Assembly: GCA_030429705.1 (NCBI GenBank)
Contig: JAUIES010000001.1
Location: forward strand, 372,001 to 436,000
Source of the DNA: Phycisphaerae bacterium
Lineage (GTDB): Bacteria > Planctomycetota > Phycisphaerae > Phycisphaerales > UBA1924
Direction of reading: 5' to 3'
DNA: 64,000 nt
Made by a program: the position numbers and the translations under genes. Under the pieces are notes generated by a model, which was not told where the DNA came from, made no database searches, and worked only from the letters and a program-made list of their open reading frames with translations. The first letter of the stretch is position 1, and each line of letters opens with the position of its first letter. This document shows positions 25,731 to 37,051 of this stretch, piece by piece.

Positions 25731-26909
25731 ATGTTTTACATTCGTAGGGCTGTTGTCGAAGATATGAGTACCCTGCTCAAACTGGGCAAGATGGTGCACT
25801 TCATCAATCTGCCTGCAGACCGCGACATCATTTCACAGAAGGTCTTGCGCAGCCGAAACTCGTTCCGAAGTGTCGCGGATGGCTCGGCAGCGGTCGCGGC
25901 TGATTTTGACAAGCAAGATCACTCTCGGAAGCGTGCTGCGCGTGGACTCGGCGAAGTCATCAACGAGTCAGAACTGTTCATGTTTGTGTTGGCTGACACC
26001 GAGAACACCGGGTGCCTCGGCACAAGCCAACTCATCAGTTGCATGGGGGGGCCGAACAATCCGAATGTCTGTTACAAACTCGAACGAAAAGAGATGTTCA
26101 GCCCAGGGCTGCAGACCGGCACCAGCCACACCGTCGCGACGCTCTACCTCGACCCATCCGCGCCGACCGAGATTGGCGGTCTCATTCTTCAGCCATCGTA
26201 CCGCGGGCATTCACTCCGCCTTGGTCGATTTCTGAGCCTCGTCCGATTCCACTTCATCGGCCTCCACCGCAAGGTGTTCCGTGATCAGGTGCTTGGTGAG
26301 ATGATGGCCCAGATCACACCGGATGGACACAACCACTTCTGGGATCATCTCGGCCGCCGGTTCATCCCGCTTTCATACATCGAAGCAGACCGACTGTGCC
26401 AGTATTCGCGCGAGTTCATGATGTCGTTGCTGCCGCGAGAACCGATTTATCTTTCGATTCTCCCGCCTGAGCCGCGCGCCGGAGTCGGACAAGTCGGCAT
26501 CGAAACCATCCCCGCCCGACGCATGCTGGAGAAACTCGGGTTCGAATACCACGGATTCGTCGATCCATTCGACGGCGGCCCATATCTCCACGCCAACACC
26601 GACGACATCCCGCTCGTTAAGAAAACCCGATTCCGCAAACTGGGCGAGCCTGTCGCCGCATCAAAGTGCAAGACACCGGGCATCATCAGCGTGCTGCACA
26701 GTGACGGCGATTTCTACGCGGTCAATCAGCCGTACATGGTCGATGGTGAGGGGCGGATCCGCATCTCACGCGAAGCGATGAGCACGCTGCAAGTCAAACC
26801 TGGCGATCGACTCGGAGTCACTGATCTTTCACCCCCAACTGATAAATCTGGAAAACCAAAGTCGGCGAAACAAACGAAGAAAACAACAACAAAGAAGTCT
26901 ACAAAATAA
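25731..26909 (+). CDS. astA: Arginine/ornithine N-succinyltransferase AstA
   Basis: A GNAT-fold enzyme of 392 residues that transfers succinyl from succinyl-CoA to the alpha-amino group of arginine or ornithine. Strong matches include MFYIRRAVVEDM, VCYKLERKEM, TLYLDPSAPTEIGGLILQP with YRGHSLRLGRFLSL, RDQVLGEMMAQ, NHFWDHLGRRFIPL and IETIPARRMLEKLGF. The last ~30 residues are a Lys/Thr-rich tail. Beyond the TAA at 26907 the same frame continues with similar Lys/Thr/Arg/Pro sequence for 21 codons to a TGA that overlaps the astD start, so the tail looks shortened by a stop codon. Confidence 0.93.
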   Translation: MFYIRRAVVEDMSTLLKLGKMVHFINLPADRDIISQKVLRSRNSFRSVADGSAAVAADFDKQDHSRKRAARGLGEVINESELFMFVLADTENTGCLGTSQLISCMGGPNNPNVCYKLERKEMFSPGLQTGTSHTVATLYLDPSAPTEIGGLILQPSYRGHSLRLGRFLSLVRFHFIGLHRKVFRDQVLGEMMAQITPDGHNHFWDHLGRRFIPLSYIEADRLCQYSREFMMSLLPREPIYLSILPPEPRAGVGQVGIETIPARRMLEKLGFEYHGFVDPFDGGPYLHANTDDIPLVKKTRFRKLGEPVAASKCKTPGIISVLHSDGDFYAVNQPYMVDGEGRIRISREAMSTLQVKPGDRLGVTDLSPPTDKSGKPKSAKQTKKTTTKKSTK

Positions 26910-26971
26910 TCGAATTCCCCTTCTAAACCGACCAGTACCACCAAGAAAACCACCCGCCGAAAGCCACGATC

Positions 26972-28507
26972 ATGAGTCATGAATCTCTTCAACAACAGCC
27001 GGCTAACCTGATCAATGGTCAATGGCGGTCGATCGAGGGCGATCAACTGGTTTCAACGAACCCGGCGAACCCGTCCCGCGTCGTGTGGCAGGGCACGCCG
27101 CGTGTCAGCGATGTTGATGAAGCCGTAGCTGCAGCACAAGCAACCTTCCCAGCCTGGTCGCGCACCACATTTGAGCAGCGTCAGGCGGTCCTTCGCCGAT
27201 ACGCACAGATCGCTGCTTCGCGTGCGGAAGAGGTCGCTCTACTGATTACCGACGAAACCGGTAAGGCCCTGTGGGAGACCAGAGGCGAAGCGAGCGCGAT
27301 CGGTGGCAAGGTCGAGATTACACTCGACCCGTCACCCACAGCGGGTCTCTCGCGCGTTTCTCCCTATTCCATCCCACTCACGGACACGCGCGAAGGCCGA
27401 TGTGCCTTCCGTCCGCATGGGGTCATGAGTGTCATCGGGCCGTTCAACTTCCCCGCGCATCTGCCCAACGGTCACTTTGTCCCGGCGATGGCGCTTGGCA
27501 ATACCATCGTGTTCAAGCCGAGCGATAAAACGCCGGCCGTCGGACAGATTCTTGCTGAGATGATGCACGAGGCGCTCGAGGCCGAGGGCATGCCCTCTGG
27601 CATTTTCAACCTTGTGCAAGGGGGGGCCGATGTCGCCAGCACCCTGACCTCGCACCGTGACATCGACGGCGTGCTGTTCACCGGGTCTTGGGCGGTCGGT
27701 CGTCGAATCCTCGAAGCCAATCTTGACCACCCAAGCCGCATGATTGCACTCGAACTTGGCGGGAATAACCCGGCGGTCGTCATGCCCGATGCTGACCTTC
27801 GACAGGCAGCCATCGAAATCGTGCGCTGCGCCTTCAACACCACAGGCCAACGATGCACCTGCACGCGTCGTGTGATCGCGCACGAGTCCATCGCAGACCA
27901 GTTGTTTAAAATGGTTGTTGCAGCCACATCCCGACTTGCCATCGGCAACCCGCGCAGCGAAGAGCCAGTGTTCTGCGGCCCGATCATCACCGACGAATCA
28001 CGACAGGCGGTTCTCGATGCATCAGCACAATTCGCAAAAACAGGCGGCGAAGTAATGCTCGAAACCAGAGCACTGCCCGAGCATGGCGATGGGTGGTTCG
28101 TCTCACCGGGCATTGTGCGAGTTGATCGGTTCGTCGCTGCCGACACCAATGACGCCGGCTGCGATAGCGAAACCTTTGGTCCGCTTCTGCGAGTCGCCGC
28201 CGTTGCATCGCTCGACGATGCTATCGAACAAGCCAATGCCACGCGGTACGGCCTGTCGGCTTCGATCTTTACTACCGACAAAACATCAGCAGAGCAATTT
28301 CTGGCGGAGTCGCGAGCCGGATGTATCAATGTCAACGCCGGAACCGCGGGCGCGAGCAGCAAACTCCCGTTCGGTGGACTCGGGCTCTCAGGAAACCATC
28401 GCCCAGCGGGCGCATTCAGCCTCGACTACTGCGCCTATCCAGTCGCACAGATGTTCGAAAAAGGCGATGGCGCGGTCATCGCGCCCGGCATGTCGTTTGA
28501 CGATTGA
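26972..28507 (+). CDS. astD: N-succinylglutamate-5-semialdehyde dehydrogenase AstD
   Basis: A 511-residue NAD(P)-dependent aldehyde dehydrogenase oxidising succinylglutamate semialdehyde to succinylglutamate. IGPFNFPAHLPNGH and FKPSDKTP bind the nucleotide, LELGGNNPAVV carries the general-base Glu and TTGQRCTCTRR the catalytic Cys; the CTCTRR continuation is characteristic of AstD. FGPLLRV and LPFGGLGLSGNHRP also fit. It ends the succinyltransferase cluster and is followed by a hairpin in the convergent gap. Confidence 0.93.
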   Translation: MSHESLQQQPANLINGQWRSIEGDQLVSTNPANPSRVVWQGTPRVSDVDEAVAAAQATFPAWSRTTFEQRQAVLRRYAQIAASRAEEVALLITDETGKALWETRGEASAIGGKVEITLDPSPTAGLSRVSPYSIPLTDTREGRCAFRPHGVMSVIGPFNFPAHLPNGHFVPAMALGNTIVFKPSDKTPAVGQILAEMMHEALEAEGMPSGIFNLVQGGADVASTLTSHRDIDGVLFTGSWAVGRRILEANLDHPSRMIALELGGNNPAVVMPDADLRQAAIEIVRCAFNTTGQRCTCTRRVIAHESIADQLFKMVVAATSRLAIGNPRSEEPVFCGPIITDESRQAVLDASAQFAKTGGEVMLETRALPEHGDGWFVSPGIVRVDRFVAADTNDAGCDSETFGPLLRVAAVASLDDAIEQANATRYGLSASIFTTDKTSAEQFLAESRAGCINVNAGTAGASSKLPFGGLGLSGNHRPAGAFSLDYCAYPVAQMFEKGDGAVIAPGMSFDD

Positions 28508-28536: not shown

Positions 28537-30537
28537 TCACTCATCTTCGACATGTGCCCCCCCGTACACCAGCGCGTGGGCTTTGTTGTCAGACTCGTCA
28601 TAGAGCCAGGCTGCAACCTGTGCATCCATATTGAAAAGCAAGACGGTGTCCGCATCCGGCGCAGGGTTGCGTGCCGGGCTTCCCCGTTGACCACTATAGC
28701 GTGCGACGCTTGAGAGCCGCACAGAGTCAATCCGCCCGTCAAAATACGATGTCGGGGCGCCGCTCCCGGCGACATCGGAACCGATCATCAGCGGAAGGTG
28801 ATTCGGCGTGCGCACACCTGAACCCGGTGCAGCTGCGATCTGCTCCCCGTCGAGGTACAGCCGAACTTCTTGGCCATCAAACACCCCGGCGATGTGGTAC
28901 CACTGACCCGCTTTCAACTGCCCCGCCGCGCCTTGCACCTCGATGTATCGCCCGTTGAGATGAATCGAAAACGACGGCTGACCTTTGTTCACGAAAAACC
29001 CATACTCCGAGTTTTCAGTCTTGGCGACCAGGCCCGTGCGATCGCTGAACGAGTCTGCCTGGAACCAGCACTCGAGCGTCATCGGCCCATCCGCGAGATC
29101 AAACTTGTTTGAAGGCACCGACGCGACGCCGCTTGTGCCGTTCACCGCAAACACGCGCTCGACGGCTGGCAGATCCGGCGCAAGCAGTTCGACATCGACC
29201 GAGATCGCAGTCCGTTTGATCGGTATCGCGTAGCGATGGCCTTCGCACAGATAATCCATCCCGATGGTCAGGTCTGGCAATCGGAATCGGTCGTTCAACG
29301 CACCACCCAAACGATCAACACGAAACGAGAACGATGCCTCTTCACCCGGCTCGAGCGTGCGATGCGCATGATCCGGCAGATACGACCACCAGTTGTCCGC
29401 AGCATCCAAACTCACCGCGACATCAACTGATCGCGAAGTCGGGTTCGGAACGCGAATCGTCACCTCACCCCCGCCTCCGCCATCGCTGGCGATCTGAACC
29501 GTGCTCTCGACAGCGTACCGTTGATCGGCGAGCCAACCAGTCTCCTGACTCACTTTCGCCGTGATCTCACGAACATCCATAATCTCGCCAACGGGTACGG
29601 ACGATAACGCGATCTGATCTTTCCGAACGGTCACAATGTGATATTGGTGCACATACCCGGCTTCTGGCACCTTGTTTGACTGCCCCCCACCCACGGTCGC
29701 GAGCGTGACATATTCAATGCCGTCGATCGTGTCATGACGCATCCGGTGAATGTGGCCTGCGAACACGGCTGTCACATTGCCAGCATCCACGAGGACCTTG
29801 TGCGCCGGTTCCCAGGTGTTGCCATACCCGCCGCCAATCCATCGCGGGTGATGGAGAAACACGAAGACATGGTCGAGTTCACCAAACCTGGTCAGCGTTT
29901 CCTGCAGCCACGCCAACTGTTCCTTACTCATCTTGTTTGCAGATGGTTTTGAGAAGTTCTTCTCGCCAGTTTCCGGGTTGCCCTCGTCTGTATAGAGCAC
30001 AACAAACCCGCTATTCTTGTGTGTGAACGCATACCACAACGGCCCGAAGTGCATCTCGTAACTCTTCTCGTGTTCGCCCTCGGGTTTTCCGTCGCCGCGC
30101 CAGTAGATATCGTGATTGCCAGCGACAGGAAACCATGGGCAGAGCAACTGATCCATGATCCCTTTGAACTCGGCCATCTGTGTCATCCAGGCATCCGTCT
30201 TGTTATACCCGTTGATCAAATCCCCCACCGTCATGACCAAGTCTGGTTCGAGCAGGTTGGTATCGCGCACAGCATCGGCAAGCACGCTCACACCCTTCGC
30301 CGGGCCGCCGGTGCGGTCGCCAAAAACCACGAATGAAAATGCGTCTTTCTCGCTTGGCAACGGCAAAACAACGGAACTGTCGCGATTCGTCGTGAATCGA
30401 GTTCCATCGTTAACGGCTCGTTCGTGAGGCTCATTCGCTCGATGCAGATGCCGCTCGTGCCCGATGTTGTCTTGAGCGGTCGCGATCACGCTCGCCGCGA
30501 CCAATACCAATAGTCCTGTAAATGCGTGTCTCACCAT
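28537..30537 (-). CDS. Secreted metallophosphoesterase with LamG-like domain
   Basis: A 666-residue exported protein. A signal peptide (HAFTGLLVLVAASVIATA) is followed by a calcineurin-like phosphoesterase domain with VFGDRTGG, TVGDLINGY, VAGNHDIYW, FLHHPRW and FAGHIHRM, which supply the two-metal site. A beta-rich middle follows, then a C-terminal LamG/concanavalin A-like domain (FDLADGPMTLECWFQ, WYHIAGVFDGQEVRLYLDG, DGRIDSVRLSSVARY), often a carbohydrate-binding fold. ATG 30537 fits the signal peptide; the longer frame upstream is not needed. The substrate is unknown. It lies 83 bases after the prepilin gene and may or may not belong to the B12 operon. Confidence 0.88.
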   Translation of the reverse strand: MVRHAFTGLLVLVAASVIATAQDNIGHERHLHRANEPHERAVNDGTRFTTNRDSSVVLPLPSEKDAFSFVVFGDRTGGPAKGVSVLADAVRDTNLLEPDLVMTVGDLINGYNKTDAWMTQMAEFKGIMDQLLCPWFPVAGNHDIYWRGDGKPEGEHEKSYEMHFGPLWYAFTHKNSGFVVLYTDEGNPETGEKNFSKPSANKMSKEQLAWLQETLTRFGELDHVFVFLHHPRWIGGGYGNTWEPAHKVLVDAGNVTAVFAGHIHRMRHDTIDGIEYVTLATVGGGQSNKVPEAGYVHQYHIVTVRKDQIALSSVPVGEIMDVREITAKVSQETGWLADQRYAVESTVQIASDGGGGGEVTIRVPNPTSRSVDVAVSLDAADNWWSYLPDHAHRTLEPGEEASFSFRVDRLGGALNDRFRLPDLTIGMDYLCEGHRYAIPIKRTAISVDVELLAPDLPAVERVFAVNGTSGVASVPSNKFDLADGPMTLECWFQADSFSDRTGLVAKTENSEYGFFVNKGQPSFSIHLNGRYIEVQGAAGQLKAGQWYHIAGVFDGQEVRLYLDGEQIAAAPGSGVRTPNHLPLMIGSDVAGSGAPTSYFDGRIDSVRLSSVARYSGQRGSPARNPAPDADTVLLFNMDAQVAAWLYDESDNKAHALVYGGAHVEDE

Positions 30538-30620: not shown

Positions 30621-31424
30621 CTACCAATCACGCCAATCGGGCACATACCGGTCGGGCGTCAGACCCACTGAACCAATCTGCTGATCGGGCTCAGTCAACC
30701 ACTCCAGTTCGACCTGCACCATGGACCCACTGACATCGCCGGTCAACACAGCTACCGCACCCTTGTGACGGAAACTCGTCGTAGGGAATGGGTTCTCCTG
30801 CCAGCCGTTCCATTGGTTGTACAACATCGGCGGATCGAGCAGAGCGCTGTTGCGAGGCGGATCGCCCGCGAGTAATGAATCAGCAAACACGATGAGTTCG
30901 GCTGGTGCGGGAATCTCCCAGACGCGCCGCCAAGGCCTTTGCCCGATCTGGGCATTCCAACCGGGTGTCTGCGAAGGGCTCAGGTAATAGCCGTTGTACC
31001 CGTAGGTCGTCGTTACCGAGCGTGGCAGCCCTTGCGGCGAGTACGACCCCCAAGGCTGAGCAGGACACTCATAGACGCTGCGCTCATGCAAGGTATCCTG
31101 CAGATATGGTGCAAGGAAGCCCTGATCGGCATCGACGATGCCTGTCATGTCGCCCGCGCCACCAAACCAGAAGATGGTGTCTTCAGATCCGGAAGTCGAG
31201 CCTGATGCGGCCACCGGCATAGCAAACGATGCGAAATCGTCCGCATACACACTCCATGCAACACCGAGTTGGCGTTGGTTTGATAGGCACGCCACGGACT
31301 GTGCTGCCTGCCTCACACCCGAGAGTGCGGGCGCGAGCAATCCCACGAGAATCGCCGTGATCGCAATCACCACCAACAACTCTAAAAGCGAGAAACCGCG
31401 AGATGTCTGCTTCTGCCAATTCAT
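30621..31424 (-). CDS. Prepilin-type protein (type II secretion/pilin N-terminal signal)
   Basis: A 267-residue protein with a type III signal: a short basic leader, then RGFSLLELLVVIAITAILVG, where Gly-Phe is the cleavage/methylation site and Glu is at +5. The rest has the layout of planctomycete H-X9-DG-like pseudopilins (ACLSNQRQLGVAWSVYADD; later SFRHKGAVAVLTGDVSGSM). It is probably processed by a prepilin peptidase. Its start overlaps the stop of the beta-propeller gene by ATGA, placing it third in the cobalamin-riboswitch operon. Confidence 0.85.
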   Translation of the reverse strand: MNWQKQTSRGFSLLELLVVIAITAILVGLLAPALSGVRQAAQSVACLSNQRQLGVAWSVYADDFASFAMPVAASGSTSGSEDTIFWFGGAGDMTGIVDADQGFLAPYLQDTLHERSVYECPAQPWGSYSPQGLPRSVTTTYGYNGYYLSPSQTPGWNAQIGQRPWRRVWEIPAPAELIVFADSLLAGDPPRNSALLDPPMLYNQWNGWQENPFPTTSFRHKGAVAVLTGDVSGSMVQVELEWLTEPDQQIGSVGLTPDRYVPDWRDW

Positions 31425-32920
31425 GGATTCGTGCAGCCCATTCCAAAGATAGTCAAAAAGGCTTGAAGGTCAAAGAAGTTTATCAAACCATCGCCAGTCA
31501 AGTCGGCTTCGGGGTCGTTGGATGTGAATGCTTCGAGATAACTGATCAGATCGAAGAAATCCACGATGCCGCTGTCATTGAAATCTGCGGGACATGGTGC
31601 TGGCGGCAACTGATAAGCCCGCAAACCACCCGCACCAATGCCGTACACACGCGCTGCAGGCCCGATGGCAGAGATGCCAACGCCATTGAGTGTTTCTTGC
31701 ACGAACCCGGCTTCGTTCGGCAATTTGGAGAGGTTGAGAACCAATGTCGCTGGTGACGCACCGTATGGATCCCCCGGAGGGGGCGCACTCGCCATGACAA
31801 ACGCGCCTCCAAGGCTCTCCAACGCAACCGGTGTATGCGTCCAATAACCAACTTCCGGTCCACCGTCGAGAAAAGTGTCCCACATCAGACTTGCACTCGT
31901 CAGATTGTCTTGAAACATCTGCACCGAGGCGCGGCTACCAAACCCATTGACACCGGTTGACAGGATGATCCGTCCGTCGACAAGTGGCAGAGGCACCGCA
32001 TCCGTTCGATTGGACGGCACCGACCACAAGACCTGCCCGGTTAACGCATCAAGTTTGATCAGATTGGACGAGGTTTGCCCGCCGAAGAAGTTGTAACTGG
32101 CTACATACAACGCCCCCCCTCGATACGCCACACCAGAAAAAAGCCCGAGCCCGCCAGGATTGGGGGAATCCCAGACGGGCTCGGGAGGAGCGGCAGCATC
32201 GACAGGAAACGCGACAACCCGGCCATCCGAGGTCGCCACAACAACATTCTCTCCAGCAAGCGTTGGTGAAGCGCCGGACATTTCGCCCACACCGACAGAC
32301 CACACGATATCGCCCGGATCATGTGGATTGAGAGCGGCATCAAACGCATCAACATTGATGCAGTACAATCGCCCGGTTTGGCCGCCGAATGCAAAGTCCG
32401 TCACAAATGCACGGTCCGCCGGGCCGAGATGTGTCGTCACGAGGGGCGACGCATTTACAACCCGTCGTTGAAGCGACGCTTGCCAGAGCGAAGCACCGCT
32501 CGATAAATCGAACGCTGCAACTTCATCATCACTGGCAACGAGCACGGTGTGATTGGTTGCATCGATCGCAGGCGATGCCCACGAATCGGCGAACGGCGTC
32601 GCAATCGGCGCGAACCACCGCACCTCACCATCGTTCGCATCGACATCGATGACCGCGAACAGGCCATCCACGCGTCCAATCCCGACGATGTGATCGTCCG
32701 ACTGCACAACGCTGGTTCGACCGAGAAACGACACCGCTTCACCGGCAGGACCGGTACTGACAGTCCAGAGCGCTGAACCGATGGTCTGTCCGGTCCCAAT
32801 GCTGCCCGTTCGCACAGCCACCCTGTTTGGACCCTGCGCGAAGTGTGTCCAGTCCTGCGCGTGCGCAACAGACATGCATGCAAAAGCAACGACCCCGATG
32901 AGACGAGTGTGGTGTTTCAT
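31421..32920 (-). CDS. Secreted PQQ-like beta-propeller with GC-type dockerin tail
   Basis: A 499-residue exported protein. A signal peptide (MKHHTRLIGVVAFACM...AHA) is followed by repeated blades of the PQQ/quinoprotein type: ALWTVSTG, GEVRWFAPI, GASLWQASL, GDIVWSVGV, GQVLWSVPSNR. The last ~55 residues are a dockerin-like tail, PCPADFNDSGIVDFFDLISY with a second FFDLQAFLTIFG and the ending GC. No enzymatic residues are evident. It is the second gene behind a cobalamin riboswitch. Beta-propeller surface proteins capture B12 in Bacteroides (BtuG), so B12 binding is an attractive inference. ATG 32920 fits the signal peptide. Confidence 0.85.
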   Translation of the reverse strand: MKHHTRLIGVVAFACMSVAHAQDWTHFAQGPNRVAVRTGSIGTGQTIGSALWTVSTGPAGEAVSFLGRTSVVQSDDHIVGIGRVDGLFAVIDVDANDGEVRWFAPIATPFADSWASPAIDATNHTVLVASDDEVAAFDLSSGASLWQASLQRRVVNASPLVTTHLGPADRAFVTDFAFGGQTGRLYCINVDAFDAALNPHDPGDIVWSVGVGEMSGASPTLAGENVVVATSDGRVVAFPVDAAAPPEPVWDSPNPGGLGLFSGVAYRGGALYVASYNFFGGQTSSNLIKLDALTGQVLWSVPSNRTDAVPLPLVDGRIILSTGVNGFGSRASVQMFQDNLTSASLMWDTFLDGGPEVGYWTHTPVALESLGGAFVMASAPPPGDPYGASPATLVLNLSKLPNEAGFVQETLNGVGISAIGPAARVYGIGAGGLRAYQLPPAPCPADFNDSGIVDFFDLISYLEAFTSNDPEADLTGDGLINFFDLQAFLTIFGMGCTNP

Positions 32921-32987
32921 GGCAATCGCTCTGCCGCCGCTTTTCAGCCGCGACGAGCGTTCTGTTCGGGCCGGTGTCATCTCTCCT

Positions 32988-33830
32988 TCAAACACCGACC
33001 CGATGGCGTCGAAACGCCCCGAAGCAAACGACGAGTGATACCGCGATCGAACCCGGCGCCGGCACCACCGACACCGCGTCAATCTCGAATGTTTCGCCGT
33101 CCAGACCGGCATGACTCAGGCGAATAAACTGTGCCTCCGTCACACCTGACCCCGCGAGATCAAAACCGATACCCCCCCCAGAGCCGCCGTAGAGACCTAC
33201 CAACCCGGCGTAACTCAACCCCGCAATATCATCAAGCCCAAGCGAGGGGTCCATCGCTTGTCGAAAATCTGTGCGCACGCTACCCGGCACACCATCAAAG
33301 GGCATTGCATCCTGATAGCCGAGCGTCGGAAACAGATCCAGGTTCCTGATTGCGACATCAGACCAGGTCGCACCATCCGCGCTTGCTTCGACGCGAACCG
33401 CAGACCCCACGCCGAACATGGCCGGCGAAGGACCGACCGAACCATTCGGGAAATCACCATCGATAAACCCGGCATTCCCGAACACAATAAAATCGATGCC
33501 GAATGGGTTGGTGGCTGCATCACGAATCACCGTGTCAAATCGCAGTGTCAGACTGCCGCCAGCACCAACAGAGACAATCTCATCAACACCAAAGGCCGGA
33601 CTAAAGGGGCTGACAACACCCGGAAATGGTGTCAGTTCGCCTGTAAACCGACTTGCCGATCCGAGCGCCACTGCAGCGTTTTGAAACTCGGGGTTGGCTC
33701 CTGCCCCCGCGTCGTAATGCACGACCTCGCTGGCAAATGGACCTGCGCCTCCAATCGAGGCCACAGAACTCAACACAACGGCGAAAACCAGACGACCACG
33801 ACAGGCCACATTATCAAACAGCACACACAT
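32988..33830 (-). CDS. Cobalamin-riboswitch-controlled surface protein with PEP-CTERM-like tail
   Basis: A 280-residue exported protein. After a signal peptide (LVFAVVLSSVASIGGAG) comes a beta-rich domain with VDEIVSVGAGGSLTLRFD, FGIDFIVFGNAGF, VRVEASADGATWSDV and QFIRLSHAG. This resembles a family of surface proteins that I recall sitting near B12 uptake genes in other phyla. The C-terminus (VPAPGSIAVSLVVCFGAFRRHR) is a VPAPG-type sorting signal: motif, membrane helix, basic tail. It is the first gene after the riboswitch, with AGAAGG before the ATG, and the next gene follows after 67 bases. Confidence 0.82.
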   Translation of the reverse strand: MCVLFDNVACRGRLVFAVVLSSVASIGGAGPFASEVVHYDAGAGANPEFQNAAVALGSASRFTGELTPFPGVVSPFSPAFGVDEIVSVGAGGSLTLRFDTVIRDAATNPFGIDFIVFGNAGFIDGDFPNGSVGPSPAMFGVGSAVRVEASADGATWSDVAIRNLDLFPTLGYQDAMPFDGVPGSVRTDFRQAMDPSLGLDDIAGLSYAGLVGLYGGSGGGIGFDLAGSGVTEAQFIRLSHAGLDGETFEIDAVSVVPAPGSIAVSLVVCFGAFRRHRVGV

Positions 33831-33999
33831 CCGAGACCTTCTGACCGAATGGTCAATCTACCCCGATTCGCGCAGGGCACCTCCCACTCAAGAAAAAGAG
33901 CGGAACCGGCAACTCACGCGGGGTCTTGTCCGGCAGGCGGGTGTCGCAGGAAGGATGCGTACCGATGCAACCGGGCCCGTTTCGCGAGAGCCTCACAAA

Positions 34000-34203
34000 A
34001 ATGCTGAGAGCAGGTCTTCCGGCTTCGAGCTCGGCAGGGACCGGCCTTCCCATCCAACTTGGTGGACAGTGACCCGCACCAGGCGATCCTGGTGTGACGG
34101 ATGCTTCACACATCCGTGGCCCGCGTCGTTGCTCGTTACGGCGGCGCGTCCGCGGTGGATTCTCACCACACTTCCCTCGGGGCCCAAACAAGCGGGCACC
34201 CTC
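34000..34203 (-). ncRNA. Cobalamin (B12) riboswitch aptamer
   Basis: Read on the minus strand, the conserved pieces occur in the proper order: GGTGCCC, GGGAAGTGTGGTGAGAATCC, ACCGCGGACGCGCCGCCGTAACG, GTCACTGTC, GATGGGAAGGC and the B12 box-like CGAAGCCGGAAGACCTGC. These match the cobalamin riboswitch consensus closely. About 170 bases separate the aptamer from the start codon at 33830, room for an expression platform; GC-rich segments and a CTTTTTC stretch lie there. In known cases B12 binding lowers expression. Confidence 0.95.
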
Positions 34204-34264
34204 AACTTCAATAGCCTACACCATTTGCTGACGCTGTCAACTCGGTTGATAACTTCTCAAGAGA

Positions 34265-34636
34265 CTAACGAGGAAGGATCTGCCCCAACTGCTCACCCAA
34301 TCCAGGGAGCCCAAGCGCAGTGCCTTCTTCATCAATCGCCTCTGTGACCGCAACCTGAGCCTTTTTCAAGGCATGGTTCACAGCTTCGGCGATCAACGAC
34401 TCGGCGAGCGAGCGATCTTCGCTCGTCTTCATGCCAAACGCGAGCGAATCGCTGATCGTTATACTCAAAACCTGCATCTTGCCCGATACGACGGCGTGAA
34501 CCAGGCCTCCTTCGCATTCGCCATCGATCCGCATCGACTCCAGACGAGCCTGAATGCGTTCGCCCGCTGCTTGAATCTGATCTCGGTTCTTTAAAAGCCC
34601 TGCAATCGCTCCCATCGTCTTGATCTGATCAAACAT
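34265..34636 (-). CDS. YbaB/EbfC family nucleoid-associated protein
   Basis: A 123-residue DNA-binding protein usually encoded next to dnaX and recR. LLKNRDQIQAAGERIQARLESM is the helical part and the GGLVHAVVSGKMQVLSITISD strands follow, matching YbaB, which forms tweezer-like dimers on DNA. The start is ATG 34636; a TTG immediately upstream is less likely. It follows the dnaX tau frame by three bases. No recR is in the window. Confidence 0.88.
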   Translation of the reverse strand: MFDQIKTMGAIAGLLKNRDQIQAAGERIQARLESMRIDGECEGGLVHAVVSGKMQVLSITISDSLAFGMKTSEDRSLAESLIAEAVNHALKKAQVAVTEAIDEEGTALGLPGLGEQLGQILPR

Positions 34637-34639
34637 CAA

Positions 34640-36237
34640 TCATCCTTTTCTTCGTGAGTCCACACGCTTGGGCGTGGCATCAAACAACTCGGAAACCTGC
34701 TTGATCAAAGGATGATCCAGGTCAACATCCGCTTGTGTCTGTGGCGGCGCCTGAACGGATTCATCCGCACTCGCCGGTTCATCGTCGCCATCAATCGTTA
34801 AGACGATGTCACGCCGCCCCATGGCCTTGGCAAAATATGGTTTCAACTCGGCCAGATGTGCAACACCTGCTGCACGATGCGCTGCATCAAACCGGAGTTT
34901 CACTTCATCCTCATGCTGCGTGACAACCTCTGCATTGCTGACGATCGCCAGCAACATGCGACGAGACTTGCACGCGTGAGCAACCCGTTCAAGCAAAGGA
35001 GCGTCTGCTGAGACAGTAGTTTGCACTTCGGGCTGCTCGACTGGCGCACGCTGTGGAGCAGGCTCTCGAACTGGAGGGGTGGGCGAGGGCGGAGCGTTCA
35101 GGCTCCGGCTCGCCCCGGCTGTTTTTTTGGCGGCACCCCGCCTCTGGCAAGTGACGACGCATCTGCGAAACTCTCAGACATCGCCAGTCTTACCAGCGTC
35201 GCCTCGGCGAGTGCACGTGATGCGGCCGACCCCTTCAACATGCGCGTCACGGCTTCACACATCGCGATCATGTGGACCAGACCGGCAGCGTCAAAATGAG
35301 ACGCTCGCACGAGTTCTTCCTGCCGGGCAGGGCCGCTCAACTCGACCAGTGAAGTTGATTCTCCGCACGCTGCAAACACCATCAAATCTCGGAATCGCTC
35401 TGTTAAAGCCTCGAGACACATCTCAGGACCAATCCCGCGCCTGAGCAACTCGTCTGCACCTTCGAGCGTGCCCGCAACATCGCCGGCTGCGATCGCGTCG
35501 ATGACGCGCCCGATGATCTGCCGGTCGGGTAACCCGAGCAACGATTCGAGCAAGGCAACCGTCAAATGTGATTCGCCCGCCGCCATGACTCTGTCGAGCA
35601 GACTCAGCGCATCGCGCATCGATCCGTTGCCGAGTTTGGCGACTTCGTGGATGAGTTCCGGCTCTGCTGTCAAACCCTCAGACTCAACAACGCCAGTCAG
35701 GTGTTCGCCGATGCGCCCGGTCGCGATGTTACGAAAATCGAATCGCTGACATCGACTCTGGATCGTCGCCGGAACTTTCTGCGCTTCGGTCGTACACAGA
35801 ATGAACTTCACATGATCTGGCGGCTCTTCCATCGTTTTGAGCAGCGCATTGAATGATGCCAGGCTGAGCATGTGCACTTCGTCAATGATGTAGATTTTGT
35901 AGACGCCGCGCATCGGGCGATATGACGAGTTGGCGATGAGTTCGCGGGCGTGATCGACACCGGTGTTGCTCGCAGCGTCGATCTCGATAACATCCGTATC
36001 CTGCCCGGACATGATCGCCTGAGCCACTTCTTCGTTGTCATCCGCCTGATTCAAAACCTTGGCGAAGATACGAGCCATCGAGGTCTTGCCAACACCGCGC
36101 GTGCCACAGAACAGGTATGCGTGCGCAACCCGGTCCTGTTCGATCGCAGCCTTGAGCGTGCGAGCGATCGCTTCCTGTCCAACGACTTCATCAAAACTGG
36201 TGGATCGATATCGGCGTGCGAGTACGGTGTATGCCAT
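34640..36237 (-). CDS. dnaX: DNA polymerase III subunit gamma/tau, tau form made by -1 frameshift
   Basis: The clamp-loader ATPase. The frame from 36237 gives gamma (379 residues, stop at 35098): FCGTRGVGKTSMARIFAK (P-loop), EIDAASNTGVDHARELI, YIIDEVHMLS, EEPPDHVKFILCTTE and sensor/lid domains. At an A7 run (35122-35128) a -1 shift enters the second frame, giving a Pro-rich linker (NAPPSPTPPVREPAP) and a C-terminal domain ending at 34640, for about 532 residues in total. The downstream frame has no ribosome site of its own and reads like a tau tail (LDHPLIKQVSELFDATPK). Neighbours ybaB, prepilin and SRP RNA lie on the same strand. Confidence 0.93.
35081..35128 (-). promoter_or_regulatory. Programmed -1 ribosomal frameshift site in dnaX
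   Basis: In the zero frame the codons are CCA AAA AAA CAG, forming the slippery heptamer A AAA AAA (35128-35122). Six bases later a hairpin begins: GGGCGAG (35115-35109) pairs with CTCGCCC (35087-35081), and CGGAGC (35107-35102) pairs with GCTCCG (35095-35090). The zero-frame TGA lies in the apical loop. A Shine-Dalgarno-like AGAGG lies about 12 bases upstream of the slip. The layout mirrors the E. coli dnaX signal. Confidence 0.88.
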
Positions 36238-36279: not shown

Positions 36280-36789
36280 TCACGGGCTCAGGTCAAAGTC
36301 CATTTTGCCGACACCGACAGTTTTCGAATCGATCACCGCTGCCACAGCCAAAACTTCCGTGCCGTTGACAGCGTTGTACAGCGAAAGCGTGGACGCGTTT
36401 GTACCCTGGGAGGGCACTCGGCAGCGAAATTCGCCGTTGTCCGAATTGTACCAAAACGCAGTTTGACCCGAGATCGTCTTTGTCGCTGGTTCCGTCACAC
36501 CTGCACCGGCAGCCACCACTTCAATGCCATGCGGTAGCGTCGCTGCATACGGGTTTTTTGGCATGACCGCACCATGAAAATTTGATGTGTCGAGGAGCGC
36601 AGGCGGGCTTCCATGAATCGCCCGGTATTCCTCAATCACCGTGCGAGCCGATGACACAGCCCCGGCGGCACCCTGCACCTTTGACCGCGTCACCATGCCA
36701 CTGAACCGAGGAACAGCGATCGCGCCGATCACCCCAAGGATGACCACCACAACAACCAACTCAATAAGGCTGAATCCGCGACGCGACAT
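36280..36789 (-). CDS. Type II secretion/type IV pilin-like prepilin
   Basis: A 169-residue protein with the prepilin signal RRGFSLIELVVVVVILGVIG directly at the N-terminus, followed by a GspG/PilA-like body (VIEEYRAIHGSPPALLD, FWYNSDNGEFRC). It would be cut after Gly and assembled into a pseudopilus or pilus. ATG 36789 has GAGAGG upstream; the longer frame from 36837 would put extra residues before the leader. It lies between the SRP RNA and dnaX on the same strand. Confidence 0.88.
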   Translation of the reverse strand: MSRRGFSLIELVVVVVILGVIGAIAVPRFSGMVTRSKVQGAAGAVSSARTVIEEYRAIHGSPPALLDTSNFHGAVMPKNPYAATLPHGIEVVAAGAGVTEPATKTISGQTAFWYNSDNGEFRCRVPSQGTNASTLSLYNAVNGTEVLAVAAVIDSKTVGVGKMDFDLSP

Positions 36790-36923
36790 TTGGACCTCTC
36801 GACAGACATCGTCGGGTCCGTTGATCTCGAAGATCAAAACTCACTGCAAATGCGCGTTGGCGGGTCGACAGGTCGTCACAACTGTCTTGGCTGACGGTTC
36901 TCGGACGCTCTCGATGCCGTCAT

Positions 36924-37051
36924 ACCGCCCTCGGTTGACGGCCAGGACACCGGCGGCACCGGGCGACGGCCGCTTATGGCTGCTGCGGTCAAGCCCTGAC
37001 CAATTTCACGGGCCACCCGTGCACCGGGCCCGGCCGTCAACCGAAGGCGGG
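36924..37051 (-). ncRNA. ffs: Signal recognition particle RNA (small bacterial type)
   Basis: On the minus strand a 19-bp closing stem (37050-37032 with 36943-36925, one G-T wobble) frames a ~126-base hairpin. Near its apex is GGTCAGG...AGCAGCC, the domain IV core that binds Ffh. Ten bases separate the TCAGG and AGCAG halves, as in E. coli, but the usual GGAA tetraloop is replaced by TGAC, which fits the alternative URRC class. Location just upstream of dnaX/ybaB is common for this RNA. Ends are estimated from the stem. Confidence 0.8.

Follow-up and report, generated by a model that had tools for sequence, protein, structure and literature searches.

A cobalamin riboswitch operon of Phycisphaerales with a BtuH-like exported protein, a beta-propeller and a pilin-like partner

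What does a cobalamin riboswitch control if none of the genes behind it codes for a vitamin B12 transporter or a biosynthetic enzyme? This question is raised by a locus of a Phycisphaerae bacterium (order Phycisphaerales; assembly GCA_030429705.1, here G000), situated in a stretch of 64,000 nucleotides (nt) of contig JAUIES010000001.1 that is referred to as the window. Three genes, P1, P2 and P3, follow the riboswitch in this order and on the same strand (Table 1). The first of these encodes a homologue of the B12-binding domain of BtuH of Bacteroides thetaiotaomicron (B. theta), and its linkage to the riboswitch is found across the order. We regard the operon as a cobalamin-repressed cassette for scavenging of B12 at the cell surface, with a probability of about 0.8. 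Uptake of B12 by Gram-negative bacteria is understood in terms of BtuB and TonB, to which Bacteroides species add helper lipoproteins that feed BtuB.

Riboswitch, operon and linkage in relatives

An earlier note, made from the DNA sequence, had proposed a near-consensus B12 riboswitch at 34000-34203 on the minus strand. This was borne out by the RF00174 covariance model (gathering score 31.5 bits), whose match is the only one in the assembly at E values up to 0.001. Its description of the genes behind the riboswitch as a dockerin-tailed beta-propeller and a prepilin-like protein also held, all four models scoring above cut-off: PQQ_2 (PF13360, 58.9 bits, cut-off 27.6) and the GC-type dockerin (NF041540, 47.7 bits, cut-off 29) for P2, and N_methyl (PF07963, 30.4 bits, cut-off 21.2) and DUF1559 (PF07596, 23.6 bits, cut-off 23.3) for P3. 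Neither a TonB receptor nor BtuCDF or a biosynthesis gene was seen by Pfam and NCBIfam searches among P1 to P3 and P4, the gene right behind them, in agreement with the same note, and btuB was likewise not found in the operon. P2 and P3 overlap by 4 nt (ATGA), the motif AGAAGG is located 6 nt before the ATG of P1, and the reading frame of P2 stays open to 33112. P4 was considered as a further member of the operon and rejected, as it was seen in one of 60 riboswitch neighbourhoods, that of the locus itself.

Table 1 Features of the riboswitch locus and other features of the window
Feature	Position in window	Strand	Evidence
Cobalamin riboswitch aptamer, RF00174	33992..34218	(-)	61.1 bits, E 1.1e-12, full model 1-189
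Probable regulatory (P13-like) hairpin, stem of 5 base pairs, TCGCGAAAC loop	33974..33992	(-)	recurrence after B12 box
P1 (P0001), exported, BtuH-like domain and PEP-CTERM-like tail, 280 amino acids	32988..33830	(-)	family profile and model
P2 (P0002), exported PQQ/BamB-type beta-propeller, C-terminal GC-type dockerin, 499 amino acids	31421..32920	(-)	PF13360, NF041540
P3 (P0003), DUF1559-type prepilin-like protein	30621..31424	(-)	PF07963, PF07596
P4, metallophosphoesterase and LamG, right behind the operon	28537..30537	(-)	domain matches
ybaB/ebfC-like gene, upstream of the riboswitch	34265-34639		42.1 bits (below cut-off 49.5)
dnaX gene, upstream of the riboswitch	35098-36237		
Second prepilin-like protein, upstream of dnaX, near the B12 operon	36280-36837	(-)	N_methyl
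Bacterial small signal recognition particle RNA	36937-37035	(-)	57.3 bits
AstA arginine N-succinyltransferase, then aldehyde dehydrogenase	25731-28507	(+)	

The linkage was followed in two samples. The first consisted of 101 genomes (G000, its family and its order), which were searched for P1 and for RF00174. A P1 match was obtained for 80 of these genomes. RF00174 was matched at E up to 0.001 in 94, of which 92 exceed the family cut-off; 86 of the 94 have one riboswitch match and eight have two. In 76 of the 80 genomes the P1 match lies 85-1948 nt downstream of the RF00174 match on the same strand, including two (G013 and G014) in which the riboswitch scores below the family cut-off. The four exceptions are two genomes without a riboswitch match (G089, G093), one with P1 at a contig edge (G065) and one with P1 and riboswitch on different contigs (G057). 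Many of the weaker P1 matches in this search were short; a profile search of the fetched neighbourhoods revealed whole homologues in those that were looked at. The second sample comprised named genomes, the best 80 of 349 relatives, mostly metagenome assemblies of Phycisphaerales and other Planctomycetota, with some loci labelled otherwise (e.g. Cyanobacteria, Limnohabitans). RF00174 was found above its gathering score before P1 in 39 of the 41 of these loci that were scanned; the two without it are L238 and L231, the latter with a match below threshold (25.5 bits) at the expected place. The samples overlap, some named loci belonging to the same genomes (e.g. L160 and G032). The linkage of riboswitch and P1 is not due to chance. 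The possibility, named in the earlier note, that relatives of the first gene are unlinked to B12 riboswitches elsewhere is answered by the 76 linked matches among 80.

The gene order proposed for comparison in the same note was studied in 60 fetched stretches and the window. The stretches were selected in part for strong riboswitch or P1 matches and in part for coverage of other families, and form a non-random subset of the 102 riboswitch matches. Together with the window they yielded 60 neighbourhoods with a riboswitch and 62 riboswitches. P3 lies downstream of the riboswitch in 56 of the 60 neighbourhoods (55 at E below 1e-40), P1 is present in 50 and P2 in 20; P1 and P3 occur together in 48, and P3 occurs in eight without a P1 match. 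Neither was found in L104, where the contig ends 844 nt past the riboswitch, and in L109, where a BtuB-like gene follows and the contig ends 2.7 kb later. In 71 of the 80 named loci, P3 follows P1. P3 is thus the most constant partner of the riboswitch. The earlier note anticipated neither this nor the lack of a TonB plug match in G000 described below.

A small hairpin is seen repeatedly past the B12 box. For 43 of the 62 riboswitches, a TCGCG loop closed by at least 4 base pairs was found at most 95 nt from the box, compared to 677 of 12200 random 95-nt windows drawn from these loci, and the third stem pair is C-G in 27 cases and T-A in 16. The motif GGNCGCGNC is held by all 62 aptamers, in 58 of them in the form GGACGCGCC, and its CGCG could pair with the hairpin loop. 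Stem and TCGCG loop are presumably the usual L5-L13 regulatory hairpin; we infer from the sequence pattern an assignment to P13 and kissing with L5. Another leader pairing, of CCCTCG with CGAGGG of the aptamer core, was dropped, the core motif being held by just four of the 62 aptamers. The predicted fold of 33820-34030 was no more stable than that of shuffled sequences (z 0.38).

Elsewhere in the window, AstA is followed by an aldehyde dehydrogenase, a pairing that occurs in the arginine succinyltransferase pathway.

P1, a homologue of the BtuH B12-binding domain

The P1 sequence alone gave no matches in Pfam (PF14717, DUF4465, included), NCBIfam or the PDB sequences, and a search for related loci with P0001 as the lone query found nothing. 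The kinship with BtuH surfaced because a family profile was used. A profile of 40 P1 proteins (A1) matched two PDB entries, 8blw_B, the BtuH domain of BtuG1 of B. theta, at E 1.8e-12 and 7biz_A (BtuH2) at E 1.5e-6; the next row reached E 0.34. The same two structures were retrieved with an AlphaFold2 model of P0001 (mean predicted local distance difference test score, pLDDT, 91). Ranking by VIA-align of 992 chains from the Foldseek top 1000 placed 7biz_B first (Z 12.5, root mean square deviation 2.9, 144 aligned residues, 22 % identity) and 8blw_B second (Z 12.2, 2.9, 148 aligned, 21 % identity). Since profile and structure agree, P1 is taken to be a BtuH-like protein. It is a homologue of the B12-binding domain of BtuH and, judged by its sequence relatives, probably a B12 binder. 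The name BtuH is not used for P1 because btuB was not found in the operon and no match to a TonB plug domain was found in G000.

BtuG1 was found to carry a fused BtuH domain (PMC10404256). The B12 site of BtuH2 comprises Asn399 and Gln333, which contact the phosphate and ribose, Phe401 and Leu578, which pack against the lower ligand, and, as ring contacts, Tyr510, Trp511, His476 and Trp577 (PMC8941943). Asn399 aligns with the Asn of a GNAF motif in P1, Asn119 of P0001 by manual count in the profile alignment, and this residue is Asn in all aligned P1 proteins (40 of 40 in A1, 58 of 58 in a further alignment, A3).

As a side finding, 14 of the 40 A1 members hit the LIC_13355 lipoprotein family of NCBIfam (NF033170; best E 1.3e-6). 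LIC_13355 is a Leptospira protein, and the match hints that this lipoprotein may also be BtuH-like.

The C-terminus of P1 consists of VPAPG, a predicted helix (260-277) and RRHR, which by eye resembles a PEP-CTERM tail. The earlier note had called P1 a PEP-CTERM-tailed surface protein; export and a PEP-CTERM-like tail stand, the tail itself reaching no Pfam or NCBIfam model. By eye, P0001 lacks a Cys of the lipoprotein-anchor kind close to where its N-terminal hydrophobic stretch ends. By pattern, PEP-CTERM-like tails were assigned to 22 of 40 (A1) and 29 of 58 (A3) aligned P1 proteins and dockerin-like tails to 14 of 40 and 28 of 58; four of 40 and one of 58 showed neither tail, and both tails were never found together. 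The unclassified L099, L236 and perhaps L072 have a dockerin-like tail by eye. The NCBIfam GC-type dockerin model matched 13 of the 40 family members and the Pfam PEP-CTERM model (PF07589) just two. As the two tails alternate among P1 proteins, the same binding domain travels on either sorting tail. One exosortase match (PF09721, 149 bits) is present in G000, and one or two were found in all 21 genomes searched.

Propellers, prepilin and other genes behind the riboswitch

P2 is the less constant member of the operon, with presence in 30 of the 80 named loci; the dockerin of L063 belongs to P1 itself and was excluded from the count of 20 neighbourhoods given above. In loci without P2 a different exported propeller often lies between riboswitch and P1 (family F3 in 15 loci, F25 in two). 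Kinship of F3 with BtuG was considered and set aside, as PDB profile support was lacking and the best rows were designed propellers and short matches. The P2 profile itself matched BamB and quinoprotein propellers in the PDB, not BtuG. Of the likeness to BtuG beta-propellers drawn in the earlier note, an exported, riboswitch-controlled propeller therefore remains, without a sequence link of P2 to BtuG among its PDB matches. The idea of an independently assembled apparatus has to be given up for P1, which is no independent invention given its homology to the BtuH domain; only the P2 propeller is a possible parallel recruitment, judged from its sequence matches. The broader suggestion of a surface B12-capture set sorted by PEP-CTERM and dockerin signals is supported as a reading, with tails that are predicted to be PEP-CTERM-like and dockerin.

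The model of P3 contains a long, pilin-like helix (13-63, pLDDT 90.7). Its fold matches are weak, the best being PilA4 at Z 5.4, and all four rows listed are type IV pilins; assembly of P3 into a fibre is putative. The function of DUF1559 is still unknown according to the Pfam listing. In G000, 45 matches to the P3 profile occur in 3.49 million bases, about 0.1 per 7.5 kb, so that a position of P3 near the riboswitch by chance is unlikely. The riboswitch-linked copy scores 331 bits and the next of the 45 matches 151 bits, with a profile that was built from linked copies and favours them (62 of 90 candidates scored). The best P3-profile match is at the riboswitch locus in 34 of 41 genomes searched; among the other seven, three gave no riboswitch match, a contig edge is present in one, the top match lies elsewhere in two, and for one the matches listed do not show its position. 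In a tree that combines 37 riboswitch-linked P3 proteins with 20 high-scoring paralogues from 11 genomes, two changes between the labels linked and paralogue were counted, compared to a mean of 16.7 after shuffling (0 of 500 shuffles as low). The linked proteins form two groups, one of 15 rows (support 84/76) and one of 22 rows (91/89), and neither group includes a paralogue. Branch support is moderate and some of the paralogues sit on long branches; by this tree a single origin is neither shown nor excluded.

Other genes behind the riboswitch point to B12 as well. A search of the 101 genomes for DUF4465 (PF14717) found four genes, none of them in G000, and each of the four follows an RF00174 match of the same strand by no more than 3 kb; that of L107 scores 187 bits. 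The C-terminal motif IPR013424 is a PEP-CTERM motif. It was reported for 88 of 824 DUF4465 proteins (PMC12751083). DUF4465 proteins that bind B12 include BtuJ1/2, D5EK51 and 'Pan' of the planctomycete Mucisphaera calidilacus (PMC13398666; PMC12751083), and six diverse members, one of them from a planctomycete, retained B12 on purification (PMC13398666). They are exported beta-sandwich B12 binders encoded in riboswitch-controlled loci in B. theta, and lie behind B12 riboswitches in the four relatives found here; P1 is not a DUF4465 protein. A TonB receptor of one family lies right behind the riboswitch in L106 and L109. Structures of E. coli BtuB are the nearest to the L106 copy (E 7.7e-44), which scores 289 bits with TIGR01779, below the cut-off of 599.7.

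Several further cassettes deserve mention. L107 (G098) has two cobalamin riboswitches 3 kb apart, each with its own cassette, of which the second holds the DUF4465 protein, with a PEP-CTERM-like tail. Exported proteins of family F10 occur in five B12-riboswitch cassettes (L075:1752-2579, L102:1572-2660, L104:1908-2600, L107:2874-3638 and L121:1341-2465; coordinates here and below on the riboswitch strand). They share the motif DFNDG..SLAWGYRFDG; the example read has a PEP-CTERM-like tail and the example tested had no Pfam match. F10 proteins are candidate new B12 binders. Exported PEP-CTERM-type proteins with the sequence PYSPGKGG... were found in cassettes of L107 (6218-7240) and L120 (1847-2962). 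The P1 profile recovers the L120 copy at 8e-13, and these proteins may represent a third BtuH-like branch.

B12 supply and interpretation of the operon

The corrin synthesis enzyme CbiC was matched in none of 61 genomes searched, G000 included (control set: 7 of 14), and this one marker suggests that corrin synthesis is lacking. G000 has four matches to B12-binding domains, one of them in a MetH-like frame of 1204 amino acids, the length of MetH, and one strong FecCD permease match (218 bits) plus three weak ones. Assignment of the strong match to BtuC or FhuB was given up, as the two could not be distinguished. In L154-L158, permeases next to MetH-like genes were picked for having both matches on one contig and provide no independent count. 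A TonB plug domain was matched in 23 of the 61 genomes, so that the model works in this order, and found no match in 31 of the 37 genomes of the same family, a number that includes G000. With an assembly that is about 96 % complete, the absence from G000 is strong but not final.

From these findings we infer how repression, binding, localisation and transport might proceed. When B12 is scarce, the riboswitch would permit expression of the operon, as expected from its class and the genes next to it. The BtuH-type domain of P1 would, by homology, bind cobamides outside the cell, and P1 and P2 may be kept on the cell surface or within the matrix by the PEP-CTERM-like (exosortase) tail and the dockerin tail, respectively. 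In some relatives DUF4465 proteins would serve as binders too. P3 would act as a dedicated pilin-like subunit, as a support or display for the binders or as an aid to their movement. B12 would then cross the inner membrane by a FecCD-type permease and serve MetH. The cassette would thus work like the Bacteroides accessory system without being a member of it, as neither a lipid anchor nor BtuB was found. As in the BtuH2 and BtuG1-BtuGH systems of B. theta (7BIZ, 8BLW; PMC8941943; PMC10404256), a homologous domain is part of an exported surface-type protein encoded in a riboswitch-controlled locus. A further likeness is the fusion of the BtuH domain to a beta-propeller in BtuGH and the position of the P1 gene beside a propeller gene. 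As differences, no PKD domains were seen in the locus studied here, a PEP-CTERM-like or dockerin tail replaces the lipid anchor, BtuB is missing from the operon, the genome gave no match to a TonB plug domain, and a pilin partner is present.

The boldest reading concerns the passage of B12 across the outer membrane. A fibre or pseudopilus of P3 might carry or retract the binders P1 and P2, with B12 entering the periplasm via a secretin-type channel that replaces BtuB (six secretin matches are present in G000); such a route is possible and is proposed here tentatively. It would fit observations on Planctopirus and Gemmata, in which labelled dextran binds to pili-like fibres and is actively taken up, the passage of the outer membrane being left open (PMC5394234). 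There, a planctomycete pilus-type surface fibre is tied to nutrient capture; the substrate is a polysaccharide instead of B12, and no pilin gene is named in the accessible part of that study.

Several observations weigh against a B12-scavenging cassette. The lead of BtuH over carbohydrate-binding modules, which come next in VIA-align (2jd9, Z 11.1), is modest at about one Z unit, and Foldseek ranked CBM32 modules first (E 1.7e-4), with BtuH not among the 50 matches listed; from this modelled fold a sugar ligand of P1 is conceivable. The nucleotide-loop site of BtuH2 appears to be kept only partly, the equivalent of Gln333 being Gln in 12 of 40 P1 proteins and Ala45 in P0001, and that of Phe401 being Phe in 20 of 40 and Gly121 in P0001. 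The ring-contacting Tyr, Trp and His residues could not be mapped with confidence. Homology by itself is no proof of binding, because BtuK2 of B. theta binds no B12 despite resembling BtuK1 (PMC12751083). Neither a terminator nor a promoter pattern was found in 33800-34700. The FecCD permease of G000 scores 154 with FhuB and 132 with BtuC, all below cut-offs, and the sole match to a periplasmic binding protein is weak (25.0 bits, cut-off 27.5).

The likeness of P1 to carbohydrate-binding modules, the lack of a transporter in the operon and its tails, PEP-CTERM and dockerin tails being typical of matrix proteins, would suit a switch in matrix formation or adhesion that is regulated by B12. P1 would then be a sugar-binding matrix protein and P3 an adhesive pilin, and scarcity of B12 would lead to settling near producers. 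This is an unlikely explanation, since BtuH domains take the first two ranks among structures similar to P1 and are its sole convincing profile matches, all four DUF4465 genes, of a family of B12 binders, lie in such cassettes, and two relatives have a BtuB-like gene behind the riboswitch. It is considerably less probable still that the first gene alone is regulated by B12, with P2 and P3 as unrelated downstream neighbours. The absence of P2 from 40 of 60 neighbourhoods would agree with this, but P3 is downstream in 56, eight of them without a P1 match, P2 and P3 overlap by 4 nt in the operon, and riboswitch-linked P3 copies group apart from paralogues. A riboswitch co-opted for something other than B12 supply, e.g. 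for sensing other corrinoids or light, might explain an operon without a B12 transporter or synthesis gene, and adenosylcobalamin is a light sensor in some bacteria; with BtuH-like, DUF4465 and BtuB-like genes behind the same riboswitch, we give this idea next to no credence.

Literature searches, which covered few of the subscription journals, retrieved no paper that connects BtuH to planctomycetes or cobalamin riboswitches to dockerins, and for cobalamin riboswitches and PEP-CTERM only unrelated work, as far as the accessible texts go. Reading the operon as a B12-scavenging cassette adds a BtuH-like lineage to those of the Bacteroidetes and Firmicutes, which the BtuH paper names, and provides a hypothesis on the function of one group of the DUF1559 pilin family. 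In a planctomycete order that gave no sign of corrin synthesis by the one marker used, the B12-regulated locus would encode a helper-type binder, tails for extracellular sorting and a dedicated pilin. With no TonB plug match in most genomes of the family, this raises the question how B12 passes such an outer membrane. The pilin route, if true, would be a new way for a vitamin to cross the bacterial outer membrane.

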